Shown: positions 2,957-25,148 of the stretch, piece after piece | Layout of the letters: the number at the start of each line of letters is the position of its first letter | Position numbering within the stretch: position 1 is the stretch's first letter | Assembly: GCA_023150835.1 (NCBI GenBank) | Contig: JAKLKB010000076.1 | Coordinates: forward strand, 1-39,932 | Length of the DNA: 39,932 nucleotides | Direction of reading: 5' to 3' | DNA from: Myxococcota bacterium | Lineage (GTDB): Bacteria; Myxococcota_C; UBA6777 | Translations under genes and position numbers: made by a program | The notes under the pieces: model-generated | The model's input: the letters and a program-made list of their open reading frames with translations, nothing else | What the model was told of the DNA's origin: nothing | The model's database searches: none

Positions 2957-3340
2957 TCTCCTTCGATGTGGGGGATTTTGTGGGGGATTTTGGATGGGGG
3001 ATTGAGTTTGTTTGATGGGGCGCTGCCCCATGCCCCGCAAGGGACTGTCGCCCCTTGACCCCGTGTTGGCGAAGAGATCACAGGTTTTTCAAACAAACGA
3101 CGCTCTCGCTTGAGGTGCCGCGAACACGGCTTTTTCTTGAATGCCCTTCTCGAAAACAGAGTCCACTTGCACCCATCGTGTGCTCGTAAAACCCAGGGCA
3201 GCCACAGCGGGCTGCCCAAGAATAGGGCAGTTCCAGCGGATCGAATCGCCATCGCTCTTCAACGAAAGCTAGACAACGCCGCAGATCGTGTGCGATAGAC
3301 ACAGAACGCTTCAACTACTTTGCTTGCAAGGAGTGTTCTG
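2957..3340. other. Gene-free spacer filled by repeats
   Basis: 384 bp between the lipoprotein and kinase genes. It holds a family A repeat (about 3013-3139) and a hairpin block resembling family B (GGGCAGCCACAGCGGGCTGC at about 3196). No ORF with a ribosome-binding site is present. Confidence 0.6.
3013..3139 (+). repeat. Family A dispersed repeat
   Basis: It begins with the small palindrome TGGGGCGCTGCCCCA, then CCCCGCAAGGGAC, CCCTTGACCCCGTGTTGGCG, AAGAGATCACAGGTTT and GCGAACACGGCTTTTT. A near copy lies at about 22992-23117 in the same orientation, and inverted copies at about 7684-7812 and 25613-25748. Shorter relatives occur near 8771, 16724 and 32998. Confidence 0.75.
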
Positions 3341-10282: not shown

Positions 10283-10315
10283 AAAGGCTCTGCGTCTCGC
10301 AGGGCCTTTTTTTTT
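10283..10315. terminator. Hairpin terminator closing the ternary operon, probably bidirectional
   Basis: An 11-bp stem, AAAGGCTCTGC/GCAGGGCCTTT with one G-T pair and a 5-nt loop (10283-10309), is followed on the plus strand by a T run to 10315. Read leftward, the same hairpin follows ten bases after the vWA stop codon and ends in CCTTTCTT. It can therefore terminate the leftward operon, and also any rightward transcript. Confidence 0.75.
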
Positions 10316-10325
10316 GAAAGATTTT

Positions 10326-11975
10326 TCAAGAGCCGCTGACCAAGGCAGCGATGAGTTGTGTGCGCGATGCAGCGATGCTTTCCATGCTGCTGCCTTCGAT
10401 CGGCAAGTAAAAAGAAAAGCTGTGTAGGTCTTGTTCTCGGGCGTAGGAAGTGGGTGGACGTTGGGCGTCAAGGATGTCCTCTGAAGAGTCGATACCTGCT
10501 CGTGATTTTTGTTTTTTGGCGCGTCTTTTTTCGAGAGAGGGTTTTCGTTTTGGGGGCGGTGTGGTGGAGGGGATTTCTTGTGGGGCGAACGGGGCGGTGT
10601 TTGGGGAGGTGGGTTGGAGGATGGGAAAAAGGATACCGTGGATCGCGGGGAGATGATCGTTGTATTGCGTAAAGATATCTTGCCAGTGGCGGATATTTTG
10701 GTAACACAGGGCGATGGCGTAGACCTTGCGTTGTGGGTCAAGGCAGTCGCGGGGATCGAGGGTGCGGGAGAGATGGAGATGGACGCTGCCGTGTTGGATC
10801 TCGTCGTAGAGTCGGAGCTTGAGCAGATCGAGGTCTTGTTGAAAGGCGGCGGGATCGAGGCGACCATGTAAGCAATGGATGTGAAATTGAAGCGCGTCAT
10901 GCTCGAAGTATCGGGTGAGATCGCGGATCAAGCGTAGGCAGAGTCCGAGCAAGAGGATGGAGAACTGATAATCGTAGCCGCTGGATTTGAGGGAGAAGAT
11001 CTCGCCGAGATCGAGGATCAGGTGGACGGTTCGGCGTTTTCGGCGAAGTTGCCCAGCATCGCGGGTGTAGAACAACAACTCACCTTCGACAAAGCGCAGA
11101 TCGAAGAGATCGATCTCTTCTTTGGATTCCATGTAGATAAGCTCGGAGAGAACGAGGTTTTCGAAGGCTCCGCGTGTGGTGATCTCGGAGATCCCGCCTG
11201 TCGGGTAGTAGGTTTCGTCGACAAAAGCGGTGTCGCTGTCGGCGGATTCGTCTTGGATCGGGAGTTCGCGTAAGTCGATCTCGCCCAAGCGTCGCTCGAT
11301 CTCGATCAGTTGGCGACAGCCGATGCGTAAGGCTTCGGTCTTGAGCTTTTCAAAATGGGTCAGTTCAAAGAGATCTTCTTCGTGCAAGAGGTCGGACCAT
11401 CGGACTTTTTGCGATGTATTTTGAAGGAATCGCAAAAGCTGTTGTGCAAACGAAGGGAGCTTTGGCAGGGCTTCGGTGATGCGTTGGTGGGCTGCATCGA
11501 TCTGGTCGTAGGAAGTCGCAGAAAGCATGCTCCCGCGCAACTGGGAGGGATGCAACAAGATATCTCGTGGCGCATTCGCCGCAAGAGGACGCCACAGCAG
11601 TTCAAGTAAGCGAAGATGAAGCTGTTTTTTGTCTGGGGCGGTTTGCAGCATCTCGAAGGCTGTTTGGAGATGGAAGTTTTGAAGAAAGCGAGACAGCCAC
11701 TCATTTTCGTAGCGCAAGCGCAAGGTGCGTTCTTCTTCGGGCCAATCTTGGAAGCCTTTGAGCGAAGCAAAGCGGGTGTTGTGGCCTTCGTAAAGCAGCG
11801 CACCAAGGTCCACGATCAAGAAAAACGGGAGATGGTAATGCCCCAGCCCAGCAAGGTGGCGATACCAGACGAAGGCGGGCGAAAGGTAAGCGCGCAAGAG
11901 ATCTTCGGAGAGCGCGCTGTAGCGCAGGCTTGCGAGCAGATAAGAAGTGGTTTGGGCTTCGGGGATGGTGTGCAT
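10326..11975 (-). CDS. vWA-like protein of the FtsH/MoxR/vWA operon
   Basis: A 549-aa protein, last gene of the operon, 28 bp after moxR. An alpha-helical N-terminal half (1-245) precedes the pattern PTGGISEITTRGAFENL...SELIY at about 258-280, seen in vWA proteins that partner MoxR ATPases. A Rossmann-like domain starts with the strand VHLILDLGEIF at about 317-327. The usual DxSxS metal-binding (MIDAS) motif reads DLGEI, so metal-dependent adhesion is probably lost. A Pro/Lys/Arg-rich insertion at about 470-500 precedes a short C-terminal segment. MoxR-vWA pairs act as chaperone-like or conformational switches; here it probably links MoxR to the rest of the complex. ATG 11975 was chosen because the extension to 12074 overlaps moxR and lacks a ribosome-binding site. 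Confidence 0.75.
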   Translation of the reverse strand: MHTIPEAQTTSYLLASLRYSALSEDLLRAYLSPAFVWYRHLAGLGHYHLPFFLIVDLGALLYEGHNTRFASLKGFQDWPEEERTLRLRYENEWLSRFLQNFHLQTAFEMLQTAPDKKQLHLRLLELLWRPLAANAPRDILLHPSQLRGSMLSATSYDQIDAAHQRITEALPKLPSFAQQLLRFLQNTSQKVRWSDLLHEEDLFELTHFEKLKTEALRIGCRQLIEIERRLGEIDLRELPIQDESADSDTAFVDETYYPTGGISEITTRGAFENLVLSELIYMESKEEIDLFDLRFVEGELLFYTRDAGQLRRKRRTVHLILDLGEIFSLKSSGYDYQFSILLLGLCLRLIRDLTRYFEHDALQFHIHCLHGRLDPAAFQQDLDLLKLRLYDEIQHGSVHLHLSRTLDPRDCLDPQRKVYAIALCYQNIRHWQDIFTQYNDHLPAIHGILFPILQPTSPNTAPFAPQEIPSTTPPPKRKPSLEKRRAKKQKSRAGIDSSEDILDAQRPPTSYAREQDLHSFSFYLPIEGSSMESIAASRTQLIAALVSGS

Positions 11976-12003
11976 GGCGCTCTCGTTTTGGAGATCTGTT
12001 GCG

Positions 12004-12999
12004 TTAATGAAGACGGAGAAGCGTATCGACTTTTTCTCGAACGGGAGCAAAGTCTTGGATGCGATCGGCGACATAGCGCAACAAAACGAGGTCTTCTTTG
12101 GTGACGACGCCTCCGTGAATTAAGAAGGCGCGTGTACGGATCAGTTTATAGAGTTTGATCACTTTGCGGTCGCTGATCTCGATGCGGTCTTCTTTTTCGA
12201 GTGTTTTGAGGATGCGTTTGAACAGAGCGTAGACATCGCTTGGGAAAAAGCGGTCGCGATCTGTTCTGCCTTCTTTGTCTTCGGTGCGAGACATCGTGTG
12301 ATCGAGATAGGCTTTGAGTTTGAGAAAGTCTTCAAGGCGGCAAAGGTCGGCCCAAGGGCGCTGTTGGAAGGCTTTGTACGTCTCGTTGCGCAAGCCTTTT
12401 TCGAGAAGTTCATCGAAGTGTGTTTCGCGCACACTTTCGCTTTCGACTTTGAGTGTGAAGCGGTCGCGCAAGGCTCCAAGCTCAGAGAACTCAGGGATCT
12501 CATTCGTTGCTCCAAAAAGCATGACCAGATCGATCGAGATCGGCTTACCATCTTGGTAATATTTTCGCTCATTGATGATCGTAAGAAGCGTATTTAAGAT
12601 CGCGGAGTTTGATTTAAAGATCTCATCCAAGAAGGCGACGCGAGATTGAGGAAGTTTACCTTCGGCGCGTCGGAGGTAGCGACCTTCTTTTAATTGGTTG
12701 ATATCGATGGGGCCGATGATCTCGCTTGGTTCGGTGAATTTGGTGAGCATATACTCAAAGTATTCTTCACCTTCAAGGCCGATGGCTTGGGCGAATTTGA
12801 CGATCAGATCGGACTTGGCGGTACCGGGTTTTCCGACGAGCAAGAGGGGTTCTTGGGCGAGGGTGCAGAGGACCATCAAGTCGACGATATCTTCTTTGTT
12901 GACGAAGTACTGCGCGAGGTGTTTTCGGACTTGGTTGACGCGCTTGCGGAGGTTTTCGACTTGGGGTTTGAGATCTTCGAAGGCGTATGTAGGAAGCAA
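12004..12999 (-). CDS. MoxR/RavA-type AAA+ ATPase
   Basis: A 331-aa MoxR-family AAA+ protein with Walker A GKPGTAKS (56-63), Walker B VAFLDEIF (121-128), sensor 1 GATN (163-166) and arginine-finger region ALRDRF (176-181). All catalytic elements look intact. The 'KFTEPSEIIGPIDI' segment (87-100) is the MoxR/RavA-specific insert. MoxR ATPases remodel partner proteins with a vWA subunit, and the gene immediately downstream encodes such a protein. The start is TTG 12999, two bases after the upstream stop. The ribosome-binding site GGGAG lies seven bases upstream inside the 3' end of the 1077-aa gene, implying translational coupling. Confidence 0.93.
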   Translation of the reverse strand: MLPTYAFEDLKPQVENLRKRVNQVRKHLAQYFVNKEDIVDLMVLCTLAQEPLLLVGKPGTAKSDLIVKFAQAIGLEGEEYFEYMLTKFTEPSEIIGPIDINQLKEGRYLRRAEGKLPQSRVAFLDEIFKSNSAILNTLLTIINERKYYQDGKPISIDLVMLFGATNEIPEFSELGALRDRFTLKVESESVRETHFDELLEKGLRNETYKAFQQRPWADLCRLEDFLKLKAYLDHTMSRTEDKEGRTDRDRFFPSDVYALFKRILKTLEKEDRIEISDRKVIKLYKLIRTRAFLIHGGVVTKEDLVLLRYVADRIQDFAPVREKVDTLLRLH

Positions 13000-13001
13000 G
13001 G

Positions 13002-16000
13002 TTATTCTCCCATCGGTTGAGTGAGGTCTTCGTGAAGGATACGTTCGCGCAGAGCCATCTCATCGCGATCCATGTATTGTTTCATTTGTCCGAGAGCGAG
13101 TTGTTCTTTGCTCGCAGCGATGCGTACGAGTTGCAGTTGAAGAAGATAACCGAGGCGCTGTAGGGCGCTTCCCTCATAGTACACGCGCATCGTGCTATCC
13201 GGGGCGTTGATCTGTTGAACGAATTGATCGGTGATGCTTTGAAGAAGTTGATTTCGTTCTTGGAGTGGTAGCTCTTCGATGGCTTGGAGAGCGACACCGC
13301 AAAAGTCGAGGAAGTCGATGGGGTTGTCGATCCAGCGGTAAAGCCACATCAGACATTGTTGGATGATCTCGATGGCTTGGGGCAAACGCTCAAGAGAAAC
13401 CAGACCTTGGGCGATGTGCAGGCGCATCAACATAAAGAACAGCCCACGCACGGAGTCCGATTCATCAGGAGGGCGGGAGGGGGCTACGCGAACAAAGTCC
13501 AAGAAATGCGCGAGCAAGACGTGGCCGGAGCCGCCCCATCGGAGCTTTCCAAGCAGATCGACAAAGCGCGAGATGGCTTTGGCGACTTCGTTGTAATCGA
13601 CGGGCGCACGGGAAAAATCGCCTTCACCCCGTATCGCATCGCGTAGTACCGACAGAAAGGTTTGGGTGAGGTGTTCGATGTGATCGGCTTTTCCCTGTTT
13701 GTGGGCTTCTTGGAGTGCTGCAAAGGCTTCTTGGAGGCGGGGCGCATGGATCGGAGCGTCCGTGTAGAGACGGCGGACATTGGAGGCGGCGAAGGCGGAT
13801 TGTAGCTCTTTTTCTTTGGCAGGTTGTAAAAGGCGAGAGCATTCTTCTATTTTTTCTTTAAGAAAAGGCTGCTTTTCAAGAAGGGAGGTGTGGTGTTGAA
13901 GCCGAGAGGCTGTGCGGATCTCGAAGGCTTCGTCTGCGTAAGAGGCTACGCTGTGGCTGATCGCAGCGACCCACAGATCCAATTCTTGATCGTCTTTGGC
14001 GTATTGTTGGGCTTCTTGGAGCAGATCGACGCCTGTTGGAAGGACTCCGACTTGGAGATGTCCTGCACCGACAAGGGCTTGCCCGACGATGCGAAAAGGA
14101 GGCAATTGCAGTTGAGCGAATTGGTTGCGCAGGTAATGGAGATGGTGAAGAGCGAGATGCTGATCGTTTTGTTCTGCTTGGGTTTCGGCGAAGAGTTGGC
14201 GGTTGTTTGCGAAGGCGCGTTGGAGAAATGTGGGGATATCGGTGATCGAAAGGCCATATTCATTGAGTTCGCGCAGCATGGATTCGCGCACACGGGCTGC
14301 TTCGCGCTGGTCGCGGTTGCATCGAAGGACTTCACGCCATGCAAGCCAACGTAGCTTTTTGCGTAAGAGAGCTTCGCTCTGATGTAGCCACTGGATATGT
14401 GTCTGCAACCACCCAGTACGGACACCCGTCGGTGCTGTAAAGAGGCTGGACAAAAACGCATCGCGTCTTGTATAGATCTGTGCGTTTTCGGTGGGTACGT
14501 TTGTGTGCTTTGTATGGGCTGTTTTAAAGAATATTTCTTGAAGCTGTTTTTTTAGCAGAGCTTCGTTTGGAGGGGAGGCGAGCCAAAGGGCCTCGATCAG
14601 GCATTCTTGGGCTTCGTCGAGTTTTTGCATCTCTTGTTTGAGTTGAGCGAGCATAAAAAAATCGTCGCTTTGTGGGTCTTGAAGGAGCTGAGCTTCAAGG
14701 GTGCGTTCTTCTTCTTCGAGCGCGCTGCGGCGGTGCTCGGAGGTGGCGGTGGGGTTGGTTTTGGAGCGTGGTGTGGGAGGGCGTTGCGTGGGCGATGTCT
14801 GCGGCTCATTCGTTTCTTTGGGAGAAGTTTCTTGTGCGGATTTTTCTCGATCTTTGGGTGTGTGGGTGTCTCGCGATGAAGTGGACTGGCGTGTGTTGAG
14901 GAGTTCAGGACGGTAAGGAGCGCGGGTGTAGCGGCCTAGGTCAAAAACACTTTGTTGCTGGATGGATTGGAGATGTTCGATGTTTTGGGTGATCAAATAG
15001 TCGATGTATTGGCGCAGCGGAGCGAAAGCGTCTTCGCGGATGCGTGTCAGGGTGGCTTCTTCCATGCGGTGAGTGGACGCGGAAGGGAGGGTGACGAAAG
15101 TCAAGATGCCAGCGCGCAGATCAAAGAGGGGAGTGTATTGGTCGCGGCGGAGTTGGGGCTGAAGCTCGATATCCACAGGAAGCAGCAGTTGATGGATCCC
15201 TTTGTAACAAGCAAAGCGCTGACCGCCAAAGTCCAGCCATGCCCGACCTTTTCCGATCTGTTTTTCACGTAAGAAAAAGCGATGCTTTCCATCTTGATCT
15301 TTCTGGATATTGATCAGCAAAAGAGAAAGATCGTCTTCGTCCATCAAAGACAACTGGCGTTCAAGTTGAGGGCGATGTTGCTCTTCAAGCAGCCAGATCT
15401 CGGGTTCCAACGGGCGATTTCGCGGTTCAAAGCGCAGAGGCAAGGAAAAGCGAGGGGTTTGTTCTTTGCTTTCTTCCCAGTCTTGTTCGGTGTGGAGTTG
15501 GAGGACGAATTGCGCGGCTTTGTAGATATCTTGCCATTGGACGGGGGCGATGGTTTGCGGAGGAGCGCCCTGTGGAACAAAGGTCCATCGGGGTTCACGC
15601 GGCATCTCGGACAAGCGCCACAGATCGATCAAGGGGTGTCGATAGCCCCAAGGCGTAAAAAAATCGGTAGCTTCTTCTGTGTAAAGAGTGATCTGTTTTG
15701 AGTATTGTTCTTTACAGATCTGTAAGAGGTAGAAGGATGGAGCTTCGATCCGCAACAACAAGCCATTGTGGGGTGGATTGTGGAGAGGAGCGTATTGGAT
15801 GCGATCGTTTTGCAGGCGCATACTGATCTCGACGAGGGGACCGAGCTGATCGGGATCATGAAGCCAAAAGATCACATGTTCTTTTGGGGCAGAAAGCGGA
15901 AGAGCGGGGACGAGGTCGACGAGAGAAAGCAAGTCTTGCGCATCGCGGCGCTGGAGGACGAGCAGATCTTGTTGAGATCTATCTGGGAGAAAAAGTCGGA

Positions 16001-16235
16001 GAGAGGACTGGTTTTCTTCGATATGGTAAGTATTTTCAAAAAAATGAGAAAACAGTTTACCGAGCAGGCTTTTTTTACGAACAAAGCCGACGAGCAAAAG
16101 CAAAGGGCGGGTGGGTGGGGTTTGGGGTTGGGCGAGGTAAAGCGAGTAGCCGCGTGCGTTGTGACCTTCCGATCCGTGAAGTCGAATAAAGTCCCAAAAG
16201 GCGTCTATCTCGCGAAAGATCAGGGCGTTGCGCAT
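13002..16235 (-). CDS. Large scaffold-like protein of the FtsH/MoxR/vWA operon
   Basis: A 1077-aa soluble protein that I do not recognise by family. Residues 1-430 look like mixed alpha/beta domains. A low-complexity Ser/Thr/Pro/Lys/Glu linker spans about 435-512. Residues 520-1077 are almost all helical, with TPR-like spacing (for example 'LKQEMQKLDEAQECLIEALWLA' and 'RLPQAIEIIQQCLMWLY'). The layout suggests an adaptor that presents partners or substrates to the ATPases. It sits between the 88-aa protein (53-bp gap) and moxR (2-bp gap). ATG 16235 has no strong ribosome-binding site. In known FtsH/MoxR/vWA systems this position is taken by variable 'X' proteins; assignment to any named one needs a profile search. 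Confidence 0.8.
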   Translation of the reverse strand: MRNALIFREIDAFWDFIRLHGSEGHNARGYSLYLAQPQTPPTRPLLLLVGFVRKKSLLGKLFSHFFENTYHIEENQSSLRLFLPDRSQQDLLVLQRRDAQDLLSLVDLVPALPLSAPKEHVIFWLHDPDQLGPLVEISMRLQNDRIQYAPLHNPPHNGLLLRIEAPSFYLLQICKEQYSKQITLYTEEATDFFTPWGYRHPLIDLWRLSEMPREPRWTFVPQGAPPQTIAPVQWQDIYKAAQFVLQLHTEQDWEESKEQTPRFSLPLRFEPRNRPLEPEIWLLEEQHRPQLERQLSLMDEDDLSLLLINIQKDQDGKHRFFLREKQIGKGRAWLDFGGQRFACYKGIHQLLLPVDIELQPQLRRDQYTPLFDLRAGILTFVTLPSASTHRMEEATLTRIREDAFAPLRQYIDYLITQNIEHLQSIQQQSVFDLGRYTRAPYRPELLNTRQSTSSRDTHTPKDREKSAQETSPKETNEPQTSPTQRPPTPRSKTNPTATSEHRRSALEEEERTLEAQLLQDPQSDDFFMLAQLKQEMQKLDEAQECLIEALWLASPPNEALLKKQLQEIFFKTAHTKHTNVPTENAQIYTRRDAFLSSLFTAPTGVRTGWLQTHIQWLHQSEALLRKKLRWLAWREVLRCNRDQREAARVRESMLRELNEYGLSITDIPTFLQRAFANNRQLFAETQAEQNDQHLALHHLHYLRNQFAQLQLPPFRIVGQALVGAGHLQVGVLPTGVDLLQEAQQYAKDDQELDLWVAAISHSVASYADEAFEIRTASRLQHHTSLLEKQPFLKEKIEECSRLLQPAKEKELQSAFAASNVRRLYTDAPIHAPRLQEAFAALQEAHKQGKADHIEHLTQTFLSVLRDAIRGEGDFSRAPVDYNEVAKAISRFVDLLGKLRWGGSGHVLLAHFLDFVRVAPSRPPDESDSVRGLFFMLMRLHIAQGLVSLERLPQAIEIIQQCLMWLYRWIDNPIDFLDFCGVALQAIEELPLQERNQLLQSITDQFVQQINAPDSTMRVYYEGSALQRLGYLLQLQLVRIAASKEQLALGQMKQYMDRDEMALRERILHEDLTQPMGE

Positions 16236-16288
16236 GGGAGAGGAACTCGCTTTCTTGCTGGGTGTTGGGGGACGATGCGCGGCTTGGG

Positions 16289-16555
16289 TTAACTGGATTT
16301 GGCGGCTTGTTGCGCGTCATGGGGTTGCTCGTTTTGTGTGGTCGAAGCGGCTTGTGGTGTGAGGCGTCGAACTTTGAGATCGCCGACTTCATCAGGACGC
16401 AACACACCTTTGCCGAGCAATTGAGCCATGATCTCGCGGTGTTGCTGCTCATGTTCGATGGGTAGCGCATCGTCATCAGAAGTAAAGTCTACATAGATAT
16501 CTTTTTTTCCCGTTTCAAGGTTGTAGCGAAGATGGATCACGATCTCTTCAGACAT
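16289..16555 (-). CDS. 88-aa acidic protein of the ternary operon
   Basis: A small soluble protein starting at ATG 16555 with AAAGGTG six bases upstream. Residues 1-65 form a compact predicted alpha/beta unit: strand IVIHLRYN, turn ETGKKDIYVDF, then an acidic-His stretch SDDDALPIEHEQQHREIM and helix AQLLGKGVL. The last 25 residues are a Gln/Ala/Ser-rich tail. I do not recognise the family. Small proteins with an 'ETGKxDI...SD.DALP.EHE..H' pattern could be conserved partners or adaptors of this system. It lies between the FtsH-like gene (separated by a 255-bp spacer with repeats) and the large scaffold gene, on the same strand. Confidence 0.75.
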   Translation of the reverse strand: MSEEIVIHLRYNLETGKKDIYVDFTSDDDALPIEHEQQHREIMAQLLGKGVLRPDEVGDLKVRRLTPQAASTTQNEQPHDAQQAAKSS

Positions 16556-16660
16556 GAATGCACCTTTCTTTCTTTTCTGATAGTGAATCTTCTTTTTTAT
16601 GGCACACGATATCTAGCAGATGCGTGGGCGGAAGATGAAGAGTGATCCGCTGTAGCCGCC

Positions 16661-16720
16661 TAATGGTTGGGCAGCCACAGGGGGCTGCCTCTATATCTTT
16701 CGCTCACACAATGGGCGGAT
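16661..16720 (+). repeat. Family B dispersed repeat inside the ternary operon
   Basis: A copy with the palindrome GGGCAGCCACAGGGGGCTGCC and ATCTTTCGCTCACACAATGG lies in the 255-bp gap between the 88-aa gene and the FtsH-like gene. It is followed directly by a family A copy, so the pair forms a composite insertion within the transcription unit. Confidence 0.75.
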
Positions 16721-16723
16721 TTT

Positions 16724-16787
16724 CCGCCGAAATGGGGTCAAGGGGGCAAAGTTCCCTTGTGGGGCGTGGGGCAATGCCCCACACAAT
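16724..16787 (-). repeat. Family A dispersed repeat inside the ternary operon
   Basis: Contains CCGCCGAAATGGGGTCAAGG, AAAGTTCCCTTGTGGGG and the palindrome TGGGGCAATGCCCCA. It ends about 24 bp before the stop codon of the FtsH-like gene, so the operon transcript would carry its hairpin. Confidence 0.7.
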
Positions 16788-16810
16788 TATCCAATCCAAT
16801 CGCATAAGCT

Positions 16811-18982
16811 CTAAGAAGATTTGAAAGTTCGGCCTCCGAAGATATCTTTGAGTTCATGGAGTTGGAGCGTCTTTTTTTCGAGCAGCAGATCCACCAAGGT
16901 TTGAAGCTCGGTGCGGTAGTCAGCGAGAAGCTGTTCGGTGCGTTGGCGCTGCGTTTCGAGTAATTGGGCGATCTCTTGATCGATGCGGGCGGCTGCGTGT
17001 TCAGAGATAGCGCGACGGGGTCCACCTAACTCTGCGGTGTGTTCTGTGTTTGCGGCGACTGTACGCAGGCCGATGGCTTCTCCGCCCATACCCAGTTCTT
17101 CGACCATCATCCGACAAATCTCACTTGCACGCTGGAGATCGTCGTACGAACCGACGGAGATATCTCCAATCAAAAGTTGTTCGGCTAAGCGCCCTGCGAG
17201 CAGGACGCAGATATCGTCCACGAGTTCGGCGCGTGTGATGACATACTTGTTTTCTCGGACGGCTTGCATGACGTACCCGAGGACTTGGTCTTCGCCTGTC
17301 GAGATCGTCACTTTTTCGAGGGTGGGGCATTTGGGTAAAACGTAAGCGCAGAGGGCGTGTCCGGCTTCGTGGACGGCGATGGTACGTTGCTCTTTGGCGG
17401 TTAGTTTTACAGGCTTTTTCTGTTTTTGTTGTAAGATTCGATCGACGTCTTCTTCTGTAATGATATCGCTGGGATTTCCGCGCCGAAGGATCTCGCGTTT
17501 GAGTCCGCGCATGATGGCGTACAAGTGGTCACCGCTGTAGCGGATACCGTATTTTTGATCGACGAATCCGCCTGTTTTTTGTACCATGATCTGCAAGAGT
17601 TCATCGGAGATCTGGAGTGCAAAGTTCTTGCGATAGATATCCAAGATCGCTTTTCGATCATCGTCTTGGGGGTAAGGGATCTCGATTTGAAGCTCAAAAC
17701 GTCCCGGGCGCAACAGCGCGGTGTCAAGGGACTCAAGGAAGTTGGTGGTTCCGACCACAAAGACAAGTTCTTCTTTGCGAAAGCCGTCCATCTCGGTGAG
17801 TAGCTGGTTAACCATGGAGTGTTCAACGCCGCTGCCTGTGTAGGTTCCGCGTGCCGAAGCGAAGGAGTCGAGTTCGTCAAACACGATGATGGAGGGGGCA
17901 GATTTGCGTGCTTGAGAAAAAACACGACGTAGATTTTCTTCGGAATCGCCAACCCACTTGGACTTGAGTTCTGGCCCAGAGACGATAAAGAGAGTGGCAT
18001 CAAGCGCGGTGGCGATGGCTTTGGCGAAGTAGGTTTTGCCCGTTCCGGGGGGTCCGTGAAAGATCATACCTTTAGGGACAAGCTGTTCGATCTGTTTGAT
18101 CTGTTCGGGATTTTGACTGCGATCTTTGAGCAAGAGCAGATCAAGGATCTCGGAGCGGATCTTGTCTTTGACAGCGTTGTATCCGCCGAGATCGCGTTGC
18201 AGATCGACGTTGGGCAGTTCGCAATCGGAGACGAGAGTCATCTGGCGGATCTCGTGATAGATGGCTTTGGTGGCTTCGGGGTGCGCGGGGTCAAAGTCAA
18301 GGCGTTGTGCGAGGTGACCGAGGATCTGGCGACAACGGACAGCATTGACTCCTGAGAGGTATTTGTAAAGTGCAAAGGGGTTAAAGGTTTCCGTCCCGAA
18401 TTTGCGGGCTTCGCGTTGCAGGATGATGGTGGGGAGCTGATCGCGAGGGATGCCGATCAGGGCGTGGCGGACGGCAAAAACATTTTCGATCACCTTGGGG
18501 AGTTCAAAGCTGGGGTCTTTGAAGCCAAGGAAGACGAGATCGGGATTTTCGTAAAAAAGCGTAGCGGCTTCGCGGGTTTCCATATTGAGTCCGCTGCGTG
18601 TGGTGGTGGTCAGGACGTCGAGGTGCGGGAGGACGATGATCTGTTCGTTGTCGCCAGAAAAGACGACCTCTTGGAGTTCGCGCAAGATGCGCTGCATACG
18701 GGTGGTGTTGGCGGTGAGTGCGCTTTCTTCTTCTTCGCCTCCTGCGTGTCCAGAGATCAAGCGACAGCGCAAGCGCGGTTCGGCGTTGCTGCGGCGCAAG
18801 CGTGCGCGTAAAGCTTTGTAAAGGTAAAGCGTCAGTTGTTTATCGCATTCGATTAGAACAGAAAGTCCGAGGCGTAGCTTCTCTTCAATCCAATCCAGTT
18901 CATCGCGGTAGATGGCTTCGGTGGCTTCGTCATAGGTCAGGGCTTGGGGGAGCGAAGAGATGGCGATCTGGTGGTTGGACAT
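16811..18982 (-). CDS. Soluble FtsH-like AAA+ protease (M41) of the ternary operon
   Basis: A 723-aa FtsH-family protein without predicted membrane segments. An N-terminal domain (1-250) contains an ATPase-like block (IIVLPHLDVLTTTTRSG, then 'FLGFKDPSFELP'), which may be a degenerate AAA half. The functional AAA+ module follows: Walker A GPPGTGKT 310-317, Walker B IIVFDELD 365-372, second region of homology with LLRPGRFE 423-430. The M41 zinc protease has HEAGH at 538-542 and the third ligand Asp615 in VGSYDDLQRAS. ATPase and protease both look intact. Ordinary FtsH is about 640 aa with two N-terminal TM helices, so this is a specialised cytoplasmic paralogue. Start ATG 18982 has AGGAAGAG upstream, 47 bp after the 192-aa gene. 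Confidence 0.93.
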   Translation of the reverse strand: MSNHQIAISSLPQALTYDEATEAIYRDELDWIEEKLRLGLSVLIECDKQLTLYLYKALRARLRRSNAEPRLRCRLISGHAGGEEEESALTANTTRMQRILRELQEVVFSGDNEQIIVLPHLDVLTTTTRSGLNMETREAATLFYENPDLVFLGFKDPSFELPKVIENVFAVRHALIGIPRDQLPTIILQREARKFGTETFNPFALYKYLSGVNAVRCRQILGHLAQRLDFDPAHPEATKAIYHEIRQMTLVSDCELPNVDLQRDLGGYNAVKDKIRSEILDLLLLKDRSQNPEQIKQIEQLVPKGMIFHGPPGTGKTYFAKAIATALDATLFIVSGPELKSKWVGDSEENLRRVFSQARKSAPSIIVFDELDSFASARGTYTGSGVEHSMVNQLLTEMDGFRKEELVFVVGTTNFLESLDTALLRPGRFELQIEIPYPQDDDRKAILDIYRKNFALQISDELLQIMVQKTGGFVDQKYGIRYSGDHLYAIMRGLKREILRRGNPSDIITEEDVDRILQQKQKKPVKLTAKEQRTIAVHEAGHALCAYVLPKCPTLEKVTISTGEDQVLGYVMQAVRENKYVITRAELVDDICVLLAGRLAEQLLIGDISVGSYDDLQRASEICRMMVEELGMGGEAIGLRTVAANTEHTAELGGPRRAISEHAAARIDQEIAQLLETQRQRTEQLLADYRTELQTLVDLLLEKKTLQLHELKDIFGGRTFKSS

Positions 18983-19029
18983 GTCTCTTCCTTTGCTTTT
19001 GGAGGGGAGTTGGCTTGGGATGAGAATCT

Positions 19030-19608
19030 CTATCGTGCAACGCGGATCACGAGTTCGTACTGGCCTTGCGAAGTAGATTCGCGGATATCCAAGACCTCGC
19101 CGAGTTGTCGGGCTTTGCGTTTCAGACTTTCGGCATAAACTTCTTGGAGAATCTGATGGGCATTTTGTAAGCGTTCTTGTTCTGCATCAAGCAGGCTTTG
19201 CGTGATTTGCCTTTGGATTGTTTCGGCTTCGCGTTTCAGATTATCACGTGCTTTGGCTTCTTCAAGGAGAAGGGCTTGTCGGGCATTTTCTTGGGCATTG
19301 CTTTTTCTGTCATAGGCATAGCCTGTGGCTTGGACATCCGTTTTTAGGATTTTTTCTTGTTCGAGCGAGGCTTGCATCTCCATTTTTTCGAGATCGTAGG
19401 TGATGGTTTCGCCTTGATTTCCTTGGGCGGTCCATTGGTTGGGGGCGGTTTCTTGGAAGCCGCGTTGTTGGAGGACGGTTGCCATGATATCGCGCATCTC
19501 GCTTTCGCTGAGGATGGGAGTAAGAGCGATAGGGCGAACTAACCGATCGGATAGCGAAAAGCGTTCTTTGACGGAGGACTTGACTTCGACGTGGTAGACT
19601 TGGCTCAC
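19030..19608 (-). CDS. 192-aa coiled-coil protein of the ternary operon
   Basis: A small soluble protein. Residues 1-90 form an alpha/beta domain (YHVEVKSSV, then 'MRDIMATVLQQRGFQE'), followed by a long charged coiled coil (about 85-165, rich in Glu/Gln/Lys/Arg/Ala) and a C-terminal strand QYELVIRVAR. The N-terminal layout faintly recalls DUF1257/Ycf35 proteins that accompany AAA proteins, but this is only impressionistic. The start is GTG 19608: AAAGGAG lies six bases upstream. An ATG 24 bases further up would place that ribosome-binding site inside the gene. It lies between the 431-aa gene (62-bp gap) and the FtsH-like gene (47-bp gap). It may be an adaptor for the protease. Confidence 0.78.
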   Translation of the reverse strand: MSQVYHVEVKSSVKERFSLSDRLVRPIALTPILSESEMRDIMATVLQQRGFQETAPNQWTAQGNQGETITYDLEKMEMQASLEQEKILKTDVQATGYAYDRKSNAQENARQALLLEEAKARDNLKREAETIQRQITQSLLDAEQERLQNAHQILQEVYAESLKRKARQLGEVLDIRESTSQGQYELVIRVAR

Positions 19609-19670
19609 GGACGGCTCCTTTTGGAGAGGCATGATACGCTTGTTGGCGTGGCCTCTGGTGGTGTGAAGAT

Positions 19671-20966
19671 TCAGCCGAGGGTGGGCTGGAGTGTACGTTT
19701 GAGTTCCTTGTAGGTTTGGAAAACCTCCGCAAAGCGTGTTTCTGCGTAGGTTTGGAGAAAGAGGCGATGTGCAGCGTCGCGCTCTGTCGGGTGTAGCGAG
19801 CGGATATCTTCGGCGATATCTTGGATCTGTGCGATCAATCCGATGGCTTGGAGTAGTTCGTCAGTTAGCGTCTGTCGGTCGTTCATGCGTAGGGAGTGGC
19901 TGGCTTCATGAAGCCAGCGCGGCCAATGGACGGTGAGTTGGTCTTGAGCGAGCCAGAGAGAAAAGATCTCTAACCAAGGGGCGAGCAAGTCGTAGCGCTC
20001 GGCTTGTTGAAAGAGATCGATCGCAGAAGACCAGATGCGGTGCATCTGATCGAAATAGTGCAGAAAGGCTTCGGAAGTTGGGTTGGTTTTGGGTGGGGTG
20101 TGTTTTTGGAGCCATGCGTTGCGCAGAAGGGAACCGATCCAAGGCATGAGCGGGGCGACGGATGGATCGAGAAGAAGACGGAGGGCGTCCAGTCCTTGTT
20201 GTTTGGCGCGTTGGTCTTGATGAAAAGAGACAAGCAGGATCAATGGGTTGTTTCGCCACGCGGGATGGGTTGAGCATTCAGGGGGGAGGTGTTGCTGCAC
20301 AAAAGTATAAAGAAAAAAGTGAAGAAGGAGATCGCCATTTTGTCTTGGGTAGAGTGTTGAAAGATGCCGCCATTGTGCATCGAGTACACGTCGCTTGCGC
20401 TGTTCAGAGAGGATGTCTTTTTGGGGAGAGGCCTGATCTTTTCGGGAAGAAGCCGCAGGCTGGGATATCTTGGGGGCATCGGGTGAAGGGAGTGGCTCGT
20501 GGGGGGTGTGCTTTTTTTGGGGGGGGTAAAGTTGGAAGAGATTGAACAGGATGATCAGGGTATCGATGCTGACGTTGCCAAAATTGAGAGGATGGGTAGG
20601 CCAATGGGGGGCATTCCAGAGGCGCGATGTTTGGGGTTTTTCGTGTCCTTTTTTTGCAAAGGAGCGGAGCTGCCAGCCTGTTTGGTTGCACAGAGTTTTG
20701 AGCGTGCCGCAGACGAAGATATCGTGTAGTGCTTCGAGAGCTTCGCGACTGGCGATGTGTTCGTCTTTGAGCGGGAGGATAGAGGTAAGAAAAGGACGCG
20801 GTGGGCGTTCTGGATCGTCGAAGAGATGGGCAGCGAAGGGGATAAGCGCGTGGAAAAAGGCTTTTTGTTCGGGGGTGGGTTCGTCGTGAGAGATGGGGAT
20901 GCCGTTGTGTTCGTGTTGAGAAGAAGGGAAGACTTGGGGGAGAGAAGGTGTGAGCATGGTGGTCAT
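19671..20966 (-). CDS. 431-aa helical protein of the ternary operon, unknown
   Basis: A mostly alpha-helical soluble protein that I do not recognise. Residues about 25-160 include 'FLTSILPLKDEHIASREALE' and 'FGNVSIDTLIILFNLF'. A Pro/Ser/Lys-rich linker spans about 160-190. Residues 195-431 look like helical repeats ending in a charged 'FQTYKELKRTL'. Its ATG (20966) overlaps the TGA of the radical-SAM gene in the ATGA arrangement, so the two are translationally coupled and probably made in fixed ratio. ATG 20957 is an alternative start. An in-frame extension to 21785 is only the antisense of the radical-SAM gene. Its position fits one of the variable accessory components of FtsH/MoxR/vWA systems. 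Confidence 0.75.
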   Translation of the reverse strand: MTTMLTPSLPQVFPSSQHEHNGIPISHDEPTPEQKAFFHALIPFAAHLFDDPERPPRPFLTSILPLKDEHIASREALEALHDIFVCGTLKTLCNQTGWQLRSFAKKGHEKPQTSRLWNAPHWPTHPLNFGNVSIDTLIILFNLFQLYPPQKKHTPHEPLPSPDAPKISQPAASSRKDQASPQKDILSEQRKRRVLDAQWRHLSTLYPRQNGDLLLHFFLYTFVQQHLPPECSTHPAWRNNPLILLVSFHQDQRAKQQGLDALRLLLDPSVAPLMPWIGSLLRNAWLQKHTPPKTNPTSEAFLHYFDQMHRIWSSAIDLFQQAERYDLLAPWLEIFSLWLAQDQLTVHWPRWLHEASHSLRMNDRQTLTDELLQAIGLIAQIQDIAEDIRSLHPTERDAAHRLFLQTYAETRFAEVFQTYKELKRTLQPTLG

Positions 20967-21634
20967 TTCCCTGTAGGTTGGAGAAGAAGGCGGGTGAGGT
21001 CTTGGTGTGGGAAACCGTTGATGGATATCTGGCCGTTGTGAAGGCGGATCTCGATGGTGTTGTTTGCAGCGGGCCAGCCCGCTTGTTCGTCGCGGAGGTG
21101 GGCGTAATGTGGGGAGAGGAAGTGGATCTGTTGGTTGTCTGAGCCGATCCATCGGCGTTTGTGGCTGTGTTGTGCGGGAAGATAAGGCCCATCGATCAGG
21201 AGATCCGTGTGGGCGAGCAAGGCATCCCACGCGGGGCGTTTGGCTTGTTGGAGAGATCGCAGGGTGTAGCCCGTGAAGACCATGACGGAAAGCCCGTGCT
21301 CTTGGGCGGCTTGGGCAAGGCGAGCCAGACCGACGGCTTGGGCGAAGGGTTCGCCTCCGAGCAGCGTGATCCCTTCGATCCCTTCGGTCGAGAGAGTTTT
21401 TTGGATGACGTCTTGTGTGGTTTGTAGCTGTCGGGGCTGGAAGGCCAGCATGTGAGGATTGCAACATCCGATGCAGCGAAAGGGACATCCTTGTACCCAA
21501 AGAGCCATGCGTTTTCCCGGTCCTTCGGCCTCGGTGCATTGGACAACAGCGGCGACGTTGATCAGGTGGCCTGTGTCGATTTGGGCCTGTAGGTCGGCCT
21601 CTTCGAGGGAGAACTTGGGGTTTGTGGGGATCAT
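20963..21634 (-). CDS. NrdG-like radical SAM protein heading the ternary operon
   Basis: A 223-aa radical SAM protein of the small activase type (4Fe-4S single-cluster, NrdG/PflA-like). The CX3CX2C cluster motif is Cys50-Cys54-Cys57 in WVQGCPFRCIGC. SAM-binding GGEPF is at 93-97, followed by 'MVFTGYTL' and 'LIDGPYL', both typical of NrdG. Classical NrdG activates an anaerobic ribonucleotide reductase, but no glycyl-radical enzyme gene is visible in the window. Here it is coupled by ATGA overlap to the 431-aa protein, suggesting a role within the ternary system, such as modifying a partner. The C-terminal 60 residues beyond the NrdG core are extra. Start ATG 21634 has GGAG five bases upstream; the extension to 22198 runs through a minisatellite and is rejected. 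Confidence 0.88.
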   Translation of the reverse strand: MIPTNPKFSLEEADLQAQIDTGHLINVAAVVQCTEAEGPGKRMALWVQGCPFRCIGCCNPHMLAFQPRQLQTTQDVIQKTLSTEGIEGITLLGGEPFAQAVGLARLAQAAQEHGLSVMVFTGYTLRSLQQAKRPAWDALLAHTDLLIDGPYLPAQHSHKRRWIGSDNQQIHFLSPHYAHLRDEQAGWPAANNTIEIRLHNGQISINGFPHQDLTRLLLQPTGK

Positions 21635-22130
21635 CAAGACTCCGTGTGGTGTTTCCTCTTTCGAGCCGTTGCGACAAAGGCGGAAGGCGTTTTGTCGGGT
21701 CGCTTGTTTGGAGACGTTGTTCAAGGTAGTCGGTCGATAGGGGGCTGACAAGTGCGTACAAGCGCAAAGCATACGCAAAAGCCATAGAGAGGTTCGTTGC
21801 GAAGGAAAGCGCGGGGCGTTGTGAGCGAGAAGGTGGAGTGGCGGGAGGTTGAGAAGGCGAAGTCGCGGTAAGCCGAGAAGGCGAAAGTTGAGAAGGCGAA
21901 GTCGCGGTAAGCCGAGAAGGCGAAAGTTGAGAAGGCGAAAGATCGGGAGGATAGGTGAATTAAAAAAAAGATGCAAGGAGGGTGTGACAGGGGGGGAAAT
22001 TGTGTTATGGAGGGGCGGGTCTTGGCGTTGCGGTGGTGGATCATGCCGCTGTATCGGCGAGGATCGCCGTGTCGTTTGCGGGTAGAGGTGGTCTCTATGT
22101 GTGAGCGGCGCATCAGATCGAGGTGAGGAT
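21635..22130. other. Divergent promoter spacer with minisatellite
   Basis: 496 bp between the leftward ternary operon and the rightward response-regulator gene. It should hold both promoters. The only structured element I can see is the 39-bp minisatellite at 21848-21940, followed by an A-rich stretch near 21960. No ORF with a ribosome-binding site and no dispersed repeat was recognised. Confidence 0.5.
21848..21940 (+). repeat. 39-bp minisatellite, 2.4 units
   Basis: Two identical 39-bp units starting GTTGAGAAGGCGAAGTCGCG at 21848 and 21887, plus a 15-bp third copy from 21926. Each unit itself contains near copies of GAGAAGGCGAA, so it probably arose from an older 20-bp duplication. It sits midway between the two divergent promoters. 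Confidence 0.9.
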
Positions 22131-22835
22131 ATGTCTGCTTTGGTGTTGGTCGTTGAGGATGAGCAGGATCTGGTACGCGCACTGGAGTATAACCTCAAAC
22201 GTGAGGGGTATCAGGTGCGTAGCGCGTTGACAGGAGAGGAAGCGTTGGCCCAAGCCGCACGAGAACCTGTGCCGGATCTGGTGTTGTTGGACTTGATGTT
22301 GCCCGATATGTCGGGGGTTGAAGTGTGCCGTCAGTTGCGGCGCAACGAAGCAACGTGCGAAGTTCCGATCGTGATGATCACCGCAAAAGGCGAAGAGATC
22401 GACCGTGTAGTGGGTTTTGAGGTGGGGGCGGATGATTATGTGGTGAAGCCGTTTAGTGTGCGTGAGTTGATGTTGCGGGTGCGTGCGATCTTGCGGCGTG
22501 CGCAACCAGAAACGCCCGAGACACGGGATTTGCGGTTTGGCTGTTTGCGGATCGATACCGAAGCGCATCGGGTGTGGGTGGATGAAGAAGAGCGGCGTTT
22601 GACGGCATTGGAGTTTCGGTTGTTGCACACGTTTTTAACGCGGCGTGGACGGGTGCAGACGCGGGAGATGTTGTTGCAGGATGTTTGGGGGATCGATGCG
22701 GATGTATCGACTCGGACGGTGGATACGCATGTAAAGCGGCTGCGTGAAAAACTCGGTGAAGCGGGCGCGTACGTCAAAACGCTGCGTGGTGTGGGGTATC
22801 GTTTCCGAACCCAACCAGACAGCGACGATCTTTGA
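22131..22835 (+). CDS. OmpR/PhoB-family response regulator
   Basis: A 234-aa two-component regulator. The receiver domain (about 3-120) has the acidic pair Glu9/Asp10, phosphoacceptor Asp54 in LVLLDLMLPDMSG, and Lys105 in VKPFSVREL. The winged-helix DNA-binding domain (about 135-228) has LTALEFRLLHTFL, the recognition-helix region STRTVDTHVKRLREKLG, and the wing VKTLRGVGYRF. The layout is PhoB-like. The partner kinase is encoded 357 bp downstream on the same strand. The start is ATG 22131 with AGG seven bases upstream; a GTG ten codons earlier is in frame but poorly placed. The signal is unknown; phosphate sensing is only suggested by the PhoB/PhoR-like pairing, and no pst genes are present. 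Confidence 0.92.
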   Translation: MSALVLVVEDEQDLVRALEYNLKREGYQVRSALTGEEALAQAAREPVPDLVLLDLMLPDMSGVEVCRQLRRNEATCEVPIVMITAKGEEIDRVVGFEVGADDYVVKPFSVRELMLRVRAILRRAQPETPETRDLRFGCLRIDTEAHRVWVDEEERRLTALEFRLLHTFLTRRGRVQTREMLLQDVWGIDADVSTRTVDTHVKRLREKLGEAGAYVKTLRGVGYRFRTQPDSDDL

Positions 22836-22899
22836 TCTTTGTCTGTTTGGTTTGAGAGGACTTAGACGAAATCCGAGTACACAGCAAAGGAGAGTACGT

Positions 22900-22974
22900 G
22901 GACGCCCGATTATAGGGCAGCCACAGGGGGCTACCCCTACATCTTTACGATCACACAACGGGCGGATTTCGTAT
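22900..22974 (+). repeat. Family B dispersed repeat
   Basis: GACGCCCGATTATAGGGCAG, CCACAGGGGGCTACCCCTAC, CATCTTTACGATCACACAAC, GGGCGGATTTC. Very similar to the copies at 25794-25866 and 131-200. Confidence 0.78.
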
Positions 22975-22991
22975 GGCGCATTTGGATGATT

Positions 22992-23117
22992 TTGTGGGGT
23001 GTCACCCCACGCCCCACAAGGGAGCAAAGCTCCCTTGACCCCGTGTTTGGCGAAGAGATCACAGGTTTCAAAACAACAGCTTTGTCGCTTGAAGTGTCGC
23101 GAACACGGCTTTTTTTG
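22992..23117 (+). repeat. Family A dispersed repeat
   Basis: Starts TTGTGGGGTGTCACCCCACG, then GCCCCACAAGGGAGCAAAGC, CCCTTGACCCCGTGTTTGGC and GAAGAGATCACAGGTTTCAA, ending GCGAACACGGCTTTTTTT. It is aligned over about 120 bp with 3013-3139. Confidence 0.78.
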
Positions 23118-23192
23118 GTAACAAGTCACTTCTATTTGATAGGGCTTTTGAGGGGCGAGAGAAAACAGCAAAAAGGCCGAGAAGCGGTCGGG

Positions 23193-25148
23193 ATGGGATG
23201 GATGAGTGTTCGTTGGAAGATCTTTTTTAGTTCGATGCTGTTGATTGTGGTGTTTGTGGGGACGACAGGTTGGATTTTTCAGCGGGCTTTGCAGGGTTGG
23301 CTGCGCGATCACACGCAACAGGAGATGCAGCGGCAGGCGGAGGTGTTGGGCCTGTGGTTGGCGCGATCTCCCGATATCTCGATGCAAGAGCGAGCAAGCG
23401 TTTTGCAAGAGATGGCGTTGCGGGCGGGCCTGCGGATCACGTTGATCGACGAAAAGGGCGTTGTGTGGGCGGATTCGCATCGTACGGCGCAACAGATTCG
23501 GCAGATGGAGAATCATCTTCAACGGCCTGAGATTCAAGAAATTCTTCAAAAGAAGATGGGAACTGCGATCCGTCGTAGTATGACTTTAGAGCGCAAGATG
23601 TGGTATCTTGCGTTACCTTATGCTTGGGAAAAAAGTACATCTCGCCCTGCGGGGCGAGGGTTTCTGCGGGTGGCGAAGATCCAGCGCGAGGTCGAGATGG
23701 TGGTGGGCCGCTTGGGGGTGGCGTTGTTGTTGGCGACGTTGGTGGGGTTGGTGCTGTCGCTGTTGATTAGCATGGGGACTTCGCACATCGTTTCGCGCAC
23801 GCTGCGTCCGATCGTGGCGAATGCAAGGGCGATAGCGCGGGGTCAAGGCGAGAGTGAAGAGAAGATCGCGGATGAAGAGGGCGTCGATATCCCGTTGCAC
23901 CAGTCTTTTAATCCGATGTCCAAAACAGGCGGACTGGCGGGTTCTTTGCGCTATGTTGCGCAAGAGTTGGCCTTGACAGTTGAGACGTTGGCCAGCGAAC
24001 GCGATCGATTTGCAGCGGTACTTGAAAGCATGAATGCGGCGGTGGTTGCGGTGAATCGGGAATGTCGGATCTCTTGGGTGAATCGGGCGGCGTACACGCT
24101 TTTGGGCCTGAAACAAAGCCCTGTTGGAAAAGCTTTGTTTGAGGTGATCCCGTCGGTGGAGTTGCAAGAGTTGGTCGAACAAGCCCATGCAGGGGTGTCT
24201 TGCGACGCGGAGTTCGATCTGCCCGAGCCACAGGCATTGCGCGTACAGGCGCGTGCCACACCGCTTGCCGCGACGGGCGGAAGCGTCGTCTTGTTGCACG
24301 ATATCACCGAACTACGGCGGTTAGAGACGATCCGCCGTGACTTTGTGGCCAATGTTTCTCACGAACTTCGCACGCCGCTGAGCATCATCCGCGCCAATGC
24401 GGAGACGCTGTTGGACGGAGCGTTAGAGGAACCCGAGATCGCAAGGGAGTTTGTGGGGGCGTTGTTGAACCACGCAGAGCGGCTTTCGCTGTTGGTCAAC
24501 GATCTTTTGGAACTCTCGCGTATCGAGGCCAATCGTTATCCGCTACGTTCGCAGGCGTTGTCGCTCGCGCCGTTGATCCGTCGATCGATCGAATCCATTC
24601 AGTCAGCGGCAGAAAAGAAACGCTTGATGCTTCGCGAAGAACTCGCGGAGGGTTTGGAGGCCCAAGCAGACAAACAAGCACTCGAGCAGATCCTGTTGAA
24701 TCTGATCGACAATGCTGTGAAGTATACACCGACAGGTGGAAAGATTATCTTACGCACGTATGCCAAAGAAGAGGACGCGATGATCGAGGTAGAAGATGAC
24801 GGGCCGGGGATCGATGCAGAACATCGCCATCGGATCTTTGAGCGATTCTATCGGATCGATCCCGGTCGATCGCGCCAACAAGGCGGAACGGGCTTGGGTT
24901 TGGCGATCGTGCGCAACCTTGTCGAGGTCTTGGGGGGGCGCGTTGGTGTAAGGCCGGCCTCTCCGCATGGTTCGATCTTTTGGGTGCGCCTTCCTGCGGT
25001 CGCTTTGCAAGCAGACAGCGAAGAGGACGATCCTTTTTCCGATGAACCAGCCGAAGATCACGACCACGAAGACGATCCTCAAGGGCATTCTTCGACAGAT
25101 GCCACGATCGAAAGGCTCAAGAAGCCTCCGACAGGTGCCGCGATTTAA
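23193..25148 (+). CDS. PhoR-like membrane sensor histidine kinase
   Basis: A 651-aa membrane kinase. TM1 is at about 9-30, with a periplasmic sensor at about 31-173 and TM2 at about 174-196. Next come a HAMP linker (SRTLRPIVANARAIARG), a PAS domain (about 270-375, FAAVLESMNAAVVAVNREC), then HisKA with His390 in ANVSHELRTPL. The HATPase has N-box LIDNAVKYTPTGG, G1 DDGPGIDAEH, F-box FERFYR and G2 GGTGLGLAIV, all intact. The C-terminus adds an acidic/His tail (EEDDPFSDEPAEDHDHEDD) after the catalytic domain, unusual for PhoR. The cognate regulator is immediately upstream. Start choice between ATG 23193 and ATG 23202 is uncertain. The stop overlaps the stop of the convergent membrane gene by 4 bp. 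Confidence 0.92.
   Translation: MGWMSVRWKIFFSSMLLIVVFVGTTGWIFQRALQGWLRDHTQQEMQRQAEVLGLWLARSPDISMQERASVLQEMALRAGLRITLIDEKGVVWADSHRTAQQIRQMENHLQRPEIQEILQKKMGTAIRRSMTLERKMWYLALPYAWEKSTSRPAGRGFLRVAKIQREVEMVVGRLGVALLLATLVGLVLSLLISMGTSHIVSRTLRPIVANARAIARGQGESEEKIADEEGVDIPLHQSFNPMSKTGGLAGSLRYVAQELALTVETLASERDRFAAVLESMNAAVVAVNRECRISWVNRAAYTLLGLKQSPVGKALFEVIPSVELQELVEQAHAGVSCDAEFDLPEPQALRVQARATPLAATGGSVVLLHDITELRRLETIRRDFVANVSHELRTPLSIIRANAETLLDGALEEPEIAREFVGALLNHAERLSLLVNDLLELSRIEANRYPLRSQALSLAPLIRRSIESIQSAAEKKRLMLREELAEGLEAQADKQALEQILLNLIDNAVKYTPTGGKIILRTYAKEEDAMIEVEDDGPGIDAEHRHRIFERFYRIDPGRSRQQGGTGLGLAIVRNLVEVLGGRVGVRPASPHGSIFWVRLPAVALQADSEEDDPFSDEPAEDHDHEDDPQGHSSTDATIERLKKPPTGAAI

Follow-up and report, generated by a model that had tools for sequence, protein, structure and literature searches.

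A complete, simple-type FtsH ternary system in a Myxococcota bacterium, with a seemingly near-obligate radical SAM enzyme

Our subject is an eight-gene operon in a 39,932-nucleotide stretch of DNA from a Myxococcota bacterium (contig JAKLKB010000076.1 of assembly GCA_023150835.1), here called the window. The operon is a complete FtsH ternary system of the simple type, a member of a published kind. What seems to be new is the standing of its first gene. This encodes a small radical S-adenosylmethionine (SAM) enzyme, hereafter rSAM, that was earlier taken as an optional extra and that we consider a near-obligate component of the machine. Co-occurrence supports this. The family fvmX5, also encoded in the operon, is present in 38 of 377 Myxococcota genomes and 10 of 392 Planctomycetota genomes. 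Enzymes of the window's rSAM family occur in 37 of the 38 fvmX5-positive Myxococcota, compared with 45 of the 339 that are fvmX5-negative (Fisher p = 4e-27). For the rSAM subfamily scoring above 225 bits the corresponding figures are 34 of 38 and 2 of 339 (p = 1.6e-41); note that both tests ignore shared ancestry among the genomes. In Planctomycetota, eight of the ten fvmX5 genomes encode rSAM. Furthermore, where an operon has no intact rSAM, a copy is found elsewhere in the same genome (G318, G328, G176, G191, G240, G290, G263, G258, G167, G242 and G333).

The enzyme is also tied to the protein encoded by the adjacent gene. In the window this is a 431-residue product with no Pfam match by its own sequence. 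We assigned it to fvmX6, and refer to it as X6, because its relatives match that family: 21 of 31 members hit PF20004, with a best value of 6.1e-114. rSAM adjoins X6 in 22 operonic loci and in four stand-alone pairs (G328, G167, G242 and G333). Locus L226 was excluded from the stand-alone pairs, being probably the same operon broken at a contig end. X6 proteins have a conserved GG...RLW segment, at residues ~96-117, that reads TG...RLW in the window. At locus L084, in genome G328, the operonic rSAM is missing its whole CX3CX2C segment and the neighbouring X6 is missing the GG...RLW segment. The other rSAM-X6 pair of G328 keeps both the rSAM cysteines and the X6 GG segment. At the sister locus L083, in G318, rSAM is gone from the operon and X6 bears a similar deletion.

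FtsH ternary systems were described by Kaur, Burroughs, Iyer and Aravind (2020, eLife 9:e52696; PMC7159879), which is the source of the Pfam family names used here. Their 'simpler' subtype has a von Willebrand factor A (vWA) domain fused to a helical N-terminal domain, and a stand-alone gene for the effector, which is radical SAM or NEFF1. The same authors list the radical SAM protein as effector of the simple subset, modifying a peptide from another gene, and their statistics tie such systems to multicellular bacteria. We placed the operon among these systems because both the system-specific Pfam families and the published anatomy of the simple subtype match. Specifically, fvmX5, fvmX3-analog, fvmX7, ivWA, ivWA-helical_N and bpMoxR all score above the curated Pfam cut-offs, rSAM is the operon's first gene, and the vWA protein carries the helical domain. 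No genes of the complex subtype (beta-propeller-vWA, or JAB, E1 and E3 of Ubl conjugation) were detected among the eight genes or the scanned flanking proteins. An earlier note on this DNA had proposed an FtsH/MoxR/vWA ternary system of the kind predicted by the Aravind group, with two intact AAA+ engines, one bearing a protease. The profile searches bear this out, and the ATP sites of MoxR and FtsH, together with the M41 motif, are intact. The suggestion that several accessory proteins could be new falls away, since each belongs to a known fvmX family, even the 431-residue protein.

The likeness to the simple subtype extends to the MoxR P-loop, where the window's variant GKPGTAKS fits the GXXXTAKS of FtsH ternary systems, to the fusion of a divergent vWA with a helical N-terminal domain, to an FtsH with a P-loop-less N-terminal half, to helical fvmX proteins and to the stand-alone radical SAM gene. 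The difference is that rSAM here behaves as near-obligate and is tied to a helical X6 of ~300-470 residues, whereas the paper treats it as an effector. The beta-propeller MoxR-vWA ternary system also has a bpMoxR-family MoxR and a divergent vWA; the operon differs from it in having FtsH and no beta-propeller. RavA-ViaA and NorQ-NorD resemble the operon in pairing a MoxR AAA+ protein with a vWA partner. Those pairs have a canonical vWA and are not known to include FtsH, rSAM or fvmX proteins.

Table 1. Genes of the operon and the hairpin that follows it, with the profile matches for each.
Feature	Coordinates	Strand	Evidence
rSAM, radical SAM enzyme, 223 aa	20963..21634	-	Fer4_12 1.8e-32; CX3CX2C motif
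X6 (fvmX6 family), all-helical, 431 aa	19671..20966	-	PF20004 via relatives
X5 (fvmX5), 192 aa, GTG start	19030..19608	-	PF20003 2.8e-17
Soluble FtsH-type AAA+ zinc protease, 723 aa	16811..18982	-	AAA 8.1e-42; M41 1.5e-42
X3-analog (fvmX3-analog), 88 aa	16289..16555	-	PF20002 3e-22
X7 (fvmX7) scaffold, 1077 aa	13002..16235	-	PF20005 2.4e-15
MoxR AAA+ ATPase, 331 aa, TTG start	12004..12999	-	bpMoxR PF20030 5.6e-61
ivWA, 549 aa	10326..11975	-	ivWA PF19997 6.4e-25; ivWA-helical_N PF19996 2.4e-11
Terminator-like hairpin with T-rich tail, just past ivWA	10290..10302	-	pattern scan only

All eight open reading frames run leftward on the minus strand, from 21634 to 10326, exactly where the earlier note had placed them (Table 1). 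As it described, an ATGA overlap joins the 3' end of rSAM to X6, and only 2 nt separate X7 from MoxR. The MoxR/ivWA spacing is 28 nt and most intergenic gaps are below 65 nt. The exception is a 255-nt gap between FtsH and X3-analog (16556-16810), with a GC-rich terminator-like hairpin inside it (16669-16690, plus strand). Because of this gap and hairpin, a single transcript for the operon is not certain. In one relative (locus L073), an insertion of ~5 kb with unrelated genes occupies the same place. As for the terminator said in the earlier note to close the operon, a plausible T-rich hairpin does follow ivWA, but hairpins of this class hardly exceed background, with 21 matches in the region against 15.1 +/- 4.4 in shuffles.

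Upstream of the operon is a 39-bp tandem repeat in three copies (21824-21925), lying between the operon and a response-regulator gene. That gene belongs to a PhoB/PhoR-like pair of response regulator and PAS-histidine kinase (22101-25148), directly upstream of the operon and divergent from it. Elsewhere in the window, a Ser/Thr kinase is fused to a sulfatase-modifying-factor domain (3320-6745), and has near-identical short N-terminal repeats (GDAHQTTFSDATRPRRQRR).

The gene order is conserved. Eight loci, the window and seven others, have all eight genes in identical order. Hence, a chance arrangement is excluded. Same-strand neighbour pairs were counted for X5-FtsH (28 loci), X6-X5 (27), X7-MoxR (23), X3-analog-X7 (22), rSAM-X6 (22), FtsH-X3-analog (21) and MoxR-ivWA (18). 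The reading of these genes as a system, put forward in the earlier note, therefore survives a neighbourhood survey in which homologous clusters keep them together. A genus mate (Myxococcota KLAP109) and a member of a second genus (Deltaproteobacteria NP119) also carry the cluster, with its order unchanged; the KLAP109 contig ends within X6, and rSAM is on another contig. Identity to the NP119 proteins is 76% for MoxR, 68% for FtsH, 59% for X3-analog, 57% for rSAM and 50% for ivWA. Less conserved are X5 (47%), X7 (33%) and X6 (25%). In an FtsH tree, the window's copy groups with those of the genus mate and NP119 and with four Myxococcota copies (support 99/99). Against a sister genome, dN/dS was 0.02-0.21 for seven operon genes and four genes of a second system, described below as system B. 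All genes compared are under purifying selection.

The window's FtsH has a conserved N-terminal domain without a P-loop, then an active AAA domain, then peptidase M41. Among its relatives, the P-loop is present in 35 of 35 and HExGH in 34 of 35, and the N-terminal domain was found in eight of nine genomes searched. Note that this domain, while conserved, is not itself recognised as AAA; the equivalent domain of the published systems is an inactive AAA. The vWA of FtsH ternary systems often lacks its metal-binding aspartates; ivWA has no DxSxS metal site in the window, nor in any of the 21 relatives checked. An alignment of 31 relatives shows that X5 has N- and C-terminal domains flanking a coiled coil. 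X3-analog usually adjoins FtsH and is a possible adaptor. X7 has an alpha/beta N-terminal part, and TPR-type matches of its family indicate that the C-terminal half is a TPR-like helical solenoid. The AlphaFold model of X7 (pLDDT 56) is too weak for fold identification, and a PDB search with it gave mostly helical-repeat proteins at E > 0.001.

By profile, rSAM resembles NrdG and activases of pyruvate formate-lyase (PFL), and its iron-sulphur cysteines are intact in the window. It matches the NrdG model at 4e-26, yet falls under the cut-off of that model, and the sole significant PDB match of the family is PFL-activating enzyme. NrdD was not found with the NRDD profile in the window's genome or in two relatives, while positive controls worked. 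Therefore, rSAM is not a ribonucleotide-reductase activase, and we rejected that identity. We also rejected selenocysteine as the meaning of in-frame stops in some rSAM genes, since the five cases read were the genes' own terminal stops.

System B is present in each of the five genomes that make up our sample of the window's phylum. It is complete, with its genes distributed among three loci. One has X6, X7, MoxR, ivWA and X5 in that order (in G004 the examined stretch stops inside X7), and FtsH lies at a separate locus with an X3-analog. A version of system B that has no FtsH was considered and rejected, since the protease is encoded elsewhere alongside its own X3-analog. The third locus, in all five genomes, carries a further rSAM of the same family (L212, L213, L214, L215 and L228). 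It adjoins a transmembrane protein of ~590-620 residues in 5/5 genomes, and an SPFH-like protein is nearby in four. We infer that this separate rSAM serves system B. The MoxR P-loop of system B is canonical except in G002 and G003 (GPPGTAKT), and its FtsH forms a clade of its own in the FtsH tree.

Members of the rSAM family also lie beside other AAA+ machines. Six Planctomycetota loci (L130, L169, L172, L174, L176 and L178) have one in Ycf46/DUF1257/DUF2997 clusters. At L130 (6155-9541) and L174 (5782-9247), rSAM and DUF1257-like and DUF2997-like proteins sit beside a Ycf46-like AAA+ protein. The same three are seen at L169 (7853-9211) and L172 (7567-8941), and Ycf46-like sequence appears at the margin of each of these two loci. 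Clusters with a Clp-like AAA_2 or AAA protein were confirmed with Pfam at L164, L165 and L173, and L170, L175 and L177 have a similar arrangement. Enzymes from these other machines score 130-232 bits against a model built from FtsH-system members only. In the rSAM tree, the enzymes of FtsH systems do not form a clade of their own, and three AAA-cluster members fall among them. Our literature searches found no paper joining this rSAM family, FtsH ternary systems and Ycf46-type machines.

The Ycf46/DUF1257 (Ycf35)/DUF2997 clusters found in cyanobacteria and planctomycetes are like the FtsH systems in having two small partners, an AAA+ protein with an N-terminal half that matches nothing in Pfam, the same-family rSAM in those six loci and, next to one cluster, a vWA protein (L128, 7506-10710). 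They differ in having no FtsH protease domain. At L131 (3970-7829) the adjacent protein is Hsp70/actin-like. In the window's phylum, genome G002 has a row made up of an extra rSAM, a DUF1257-like gene, a 71-aa DUF2997-like ORF and a 692-aa ORF (L229, 5343-8732). Beyond X5 itself, the X5 profile scores best with a DUF1257-like ORF (E = 0.001). Comparing X5 with DUF1257 by hhalign gave P = 0.013 untrimmed and 0.0014 trimmed, but the full-length comparison does not beat a reversed-sequence control; homology of X5 to DUF1257 is suggestive only. For X3-analog and DUF2997, profile comparisons gave no signal and we rejected the relationship.

Our best explanation, to which we give a probability of roughly 0.5, is that the operon encodes a cytosolic remodelling-protease machine with two AAA+ engines, in which rSAM licenses X6. 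MoxR and ivWA would act as chaperone and co-chaperone, remodelling a scaffold of X7, X6 and X5. rSAM would alter X6 post-translationally, most likely in or near the GG...RLW segment, and so license assembly. X5 and X3-analog may be adaptors that deliver targets, or the assembly itself, to soluble FtsH, which would unfold and degrade what is delivered. The outcome would be a slow, energy-costly and redox-sensitive switch ending in proteolysis, and its trigger could be viral or could arise within the cell, from stress or development. Several observations weigh against this explanation. The idea that X5 and X3-analog are adaptors comes from gene adjacency alone. As noted, shared ancestry is ignored in the co-occurrence tests, and two Planctomycetota genomes (G007 and G427) carry the system with no rSAM of the window's family. 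Coupled loss of the rSAM and X6 segments is confined to a single lineage. At L087, rSAM is intact though the GG...RLW pattern of its X6 is degraded, and in system B, whose rSAM has a separate locus, X6 retains that segment. The AlphaFold model of X6 (pLDDT 47) is too poor to identify a fold.

What the machine is for can be read in other ways. One, a serious contender that we put a little short of an even chance, is endogenous: MoxR-ivWA and FtsH would see to the maturation or turnover of a large cellular complex, in the manner of RavA-ViaA and NorQ-NorD, and rSAM would be the enzyme for a cofactor or a modification. MoxR-vWA pairs of known function assemble metalloenzymes, which favours such a role, as do the rSAM relatives beside other AAA+ modules (for example Ycf46/Ycf35/DUF2997) and the universal presence of system B in the window's phylum. 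However, fvmX5 is missing from ~90% of the Myxococcota sampled, which makes the machine non-essential in that group. A quite different possibility, which we hold to be plausible but less probable, is the anti-invader conflict system of Kaur et al. There, MoxR-vWA would set the threshold for activation, and the killing or isolation of infected cells would fall to FtsH together with a peptide effector modified by radical SAM. The published link to multicellular bacteria (PMC7159879), the patchy distribution of fvmX5 in Myxococcota and Planctomycetota and the two copies in some genomes are consistent with this. Conversely, nothing here demonstrates the defence or self/non-self role floated in the earlier note, and a number of indirect observations lean away from it. 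There is no recognisable effector domain among the eight genes, and a Pfam and PADLOC scan of the flanks showed ordinary neighbours with no convincing defence gene. A tblastn search with the FtsH N-terminal domain returned no plasmid or phage copy. Purifying selection acts on every gene compared, and system B, dispersed as it is, occurs in 5/5 genomes of the phylum. We rejected a defence island, since the only strong PADLOC match on the flanks is a generic Ser/Thr kinase. None of PADLOC's system-specific anti-phage models matched; all that it returned were generic AAA hits (IetA and the like) and weak hits to radical SAM. Note that FtsH ternary systems are predicted, and the literature searched held no laboratory test of one.

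Least probable by far is that rSAM is an independent hitchhiker, such as an enzyme that activates ribonucleotide reductase or matures a peptide, and lies upstream by accident. While the enzyme is NrdG-like by profile, and its family is also found without an FtsH ternary system, this explanation is already contradicted by the 37/38 co-occurrence with fvmX5, by rSAM in trans where the operon has none, by the genome without NrdD and by the tight linkage to X6.

We return to the proposed licensing of a two-engine machine by rSAM. If the enzyme is obligate, there is a concrete biochemical question: what is its target, and is X6 the substrate? A broader proposal, which we think rather unlikely, is that one small-rSAM family is a general partner of AAA+ machines and that, on X6, a radical-made modification licenses an ATP-driven proteolytic complex. 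If true, radical chemistry would exert a kind of control over AAA+ proteins that is new. The presence of rSAM beside Ycf46/Ycf35-type clusters would also connect these machines with a set of plastid and cyanobacterial genes that is still unexplained.

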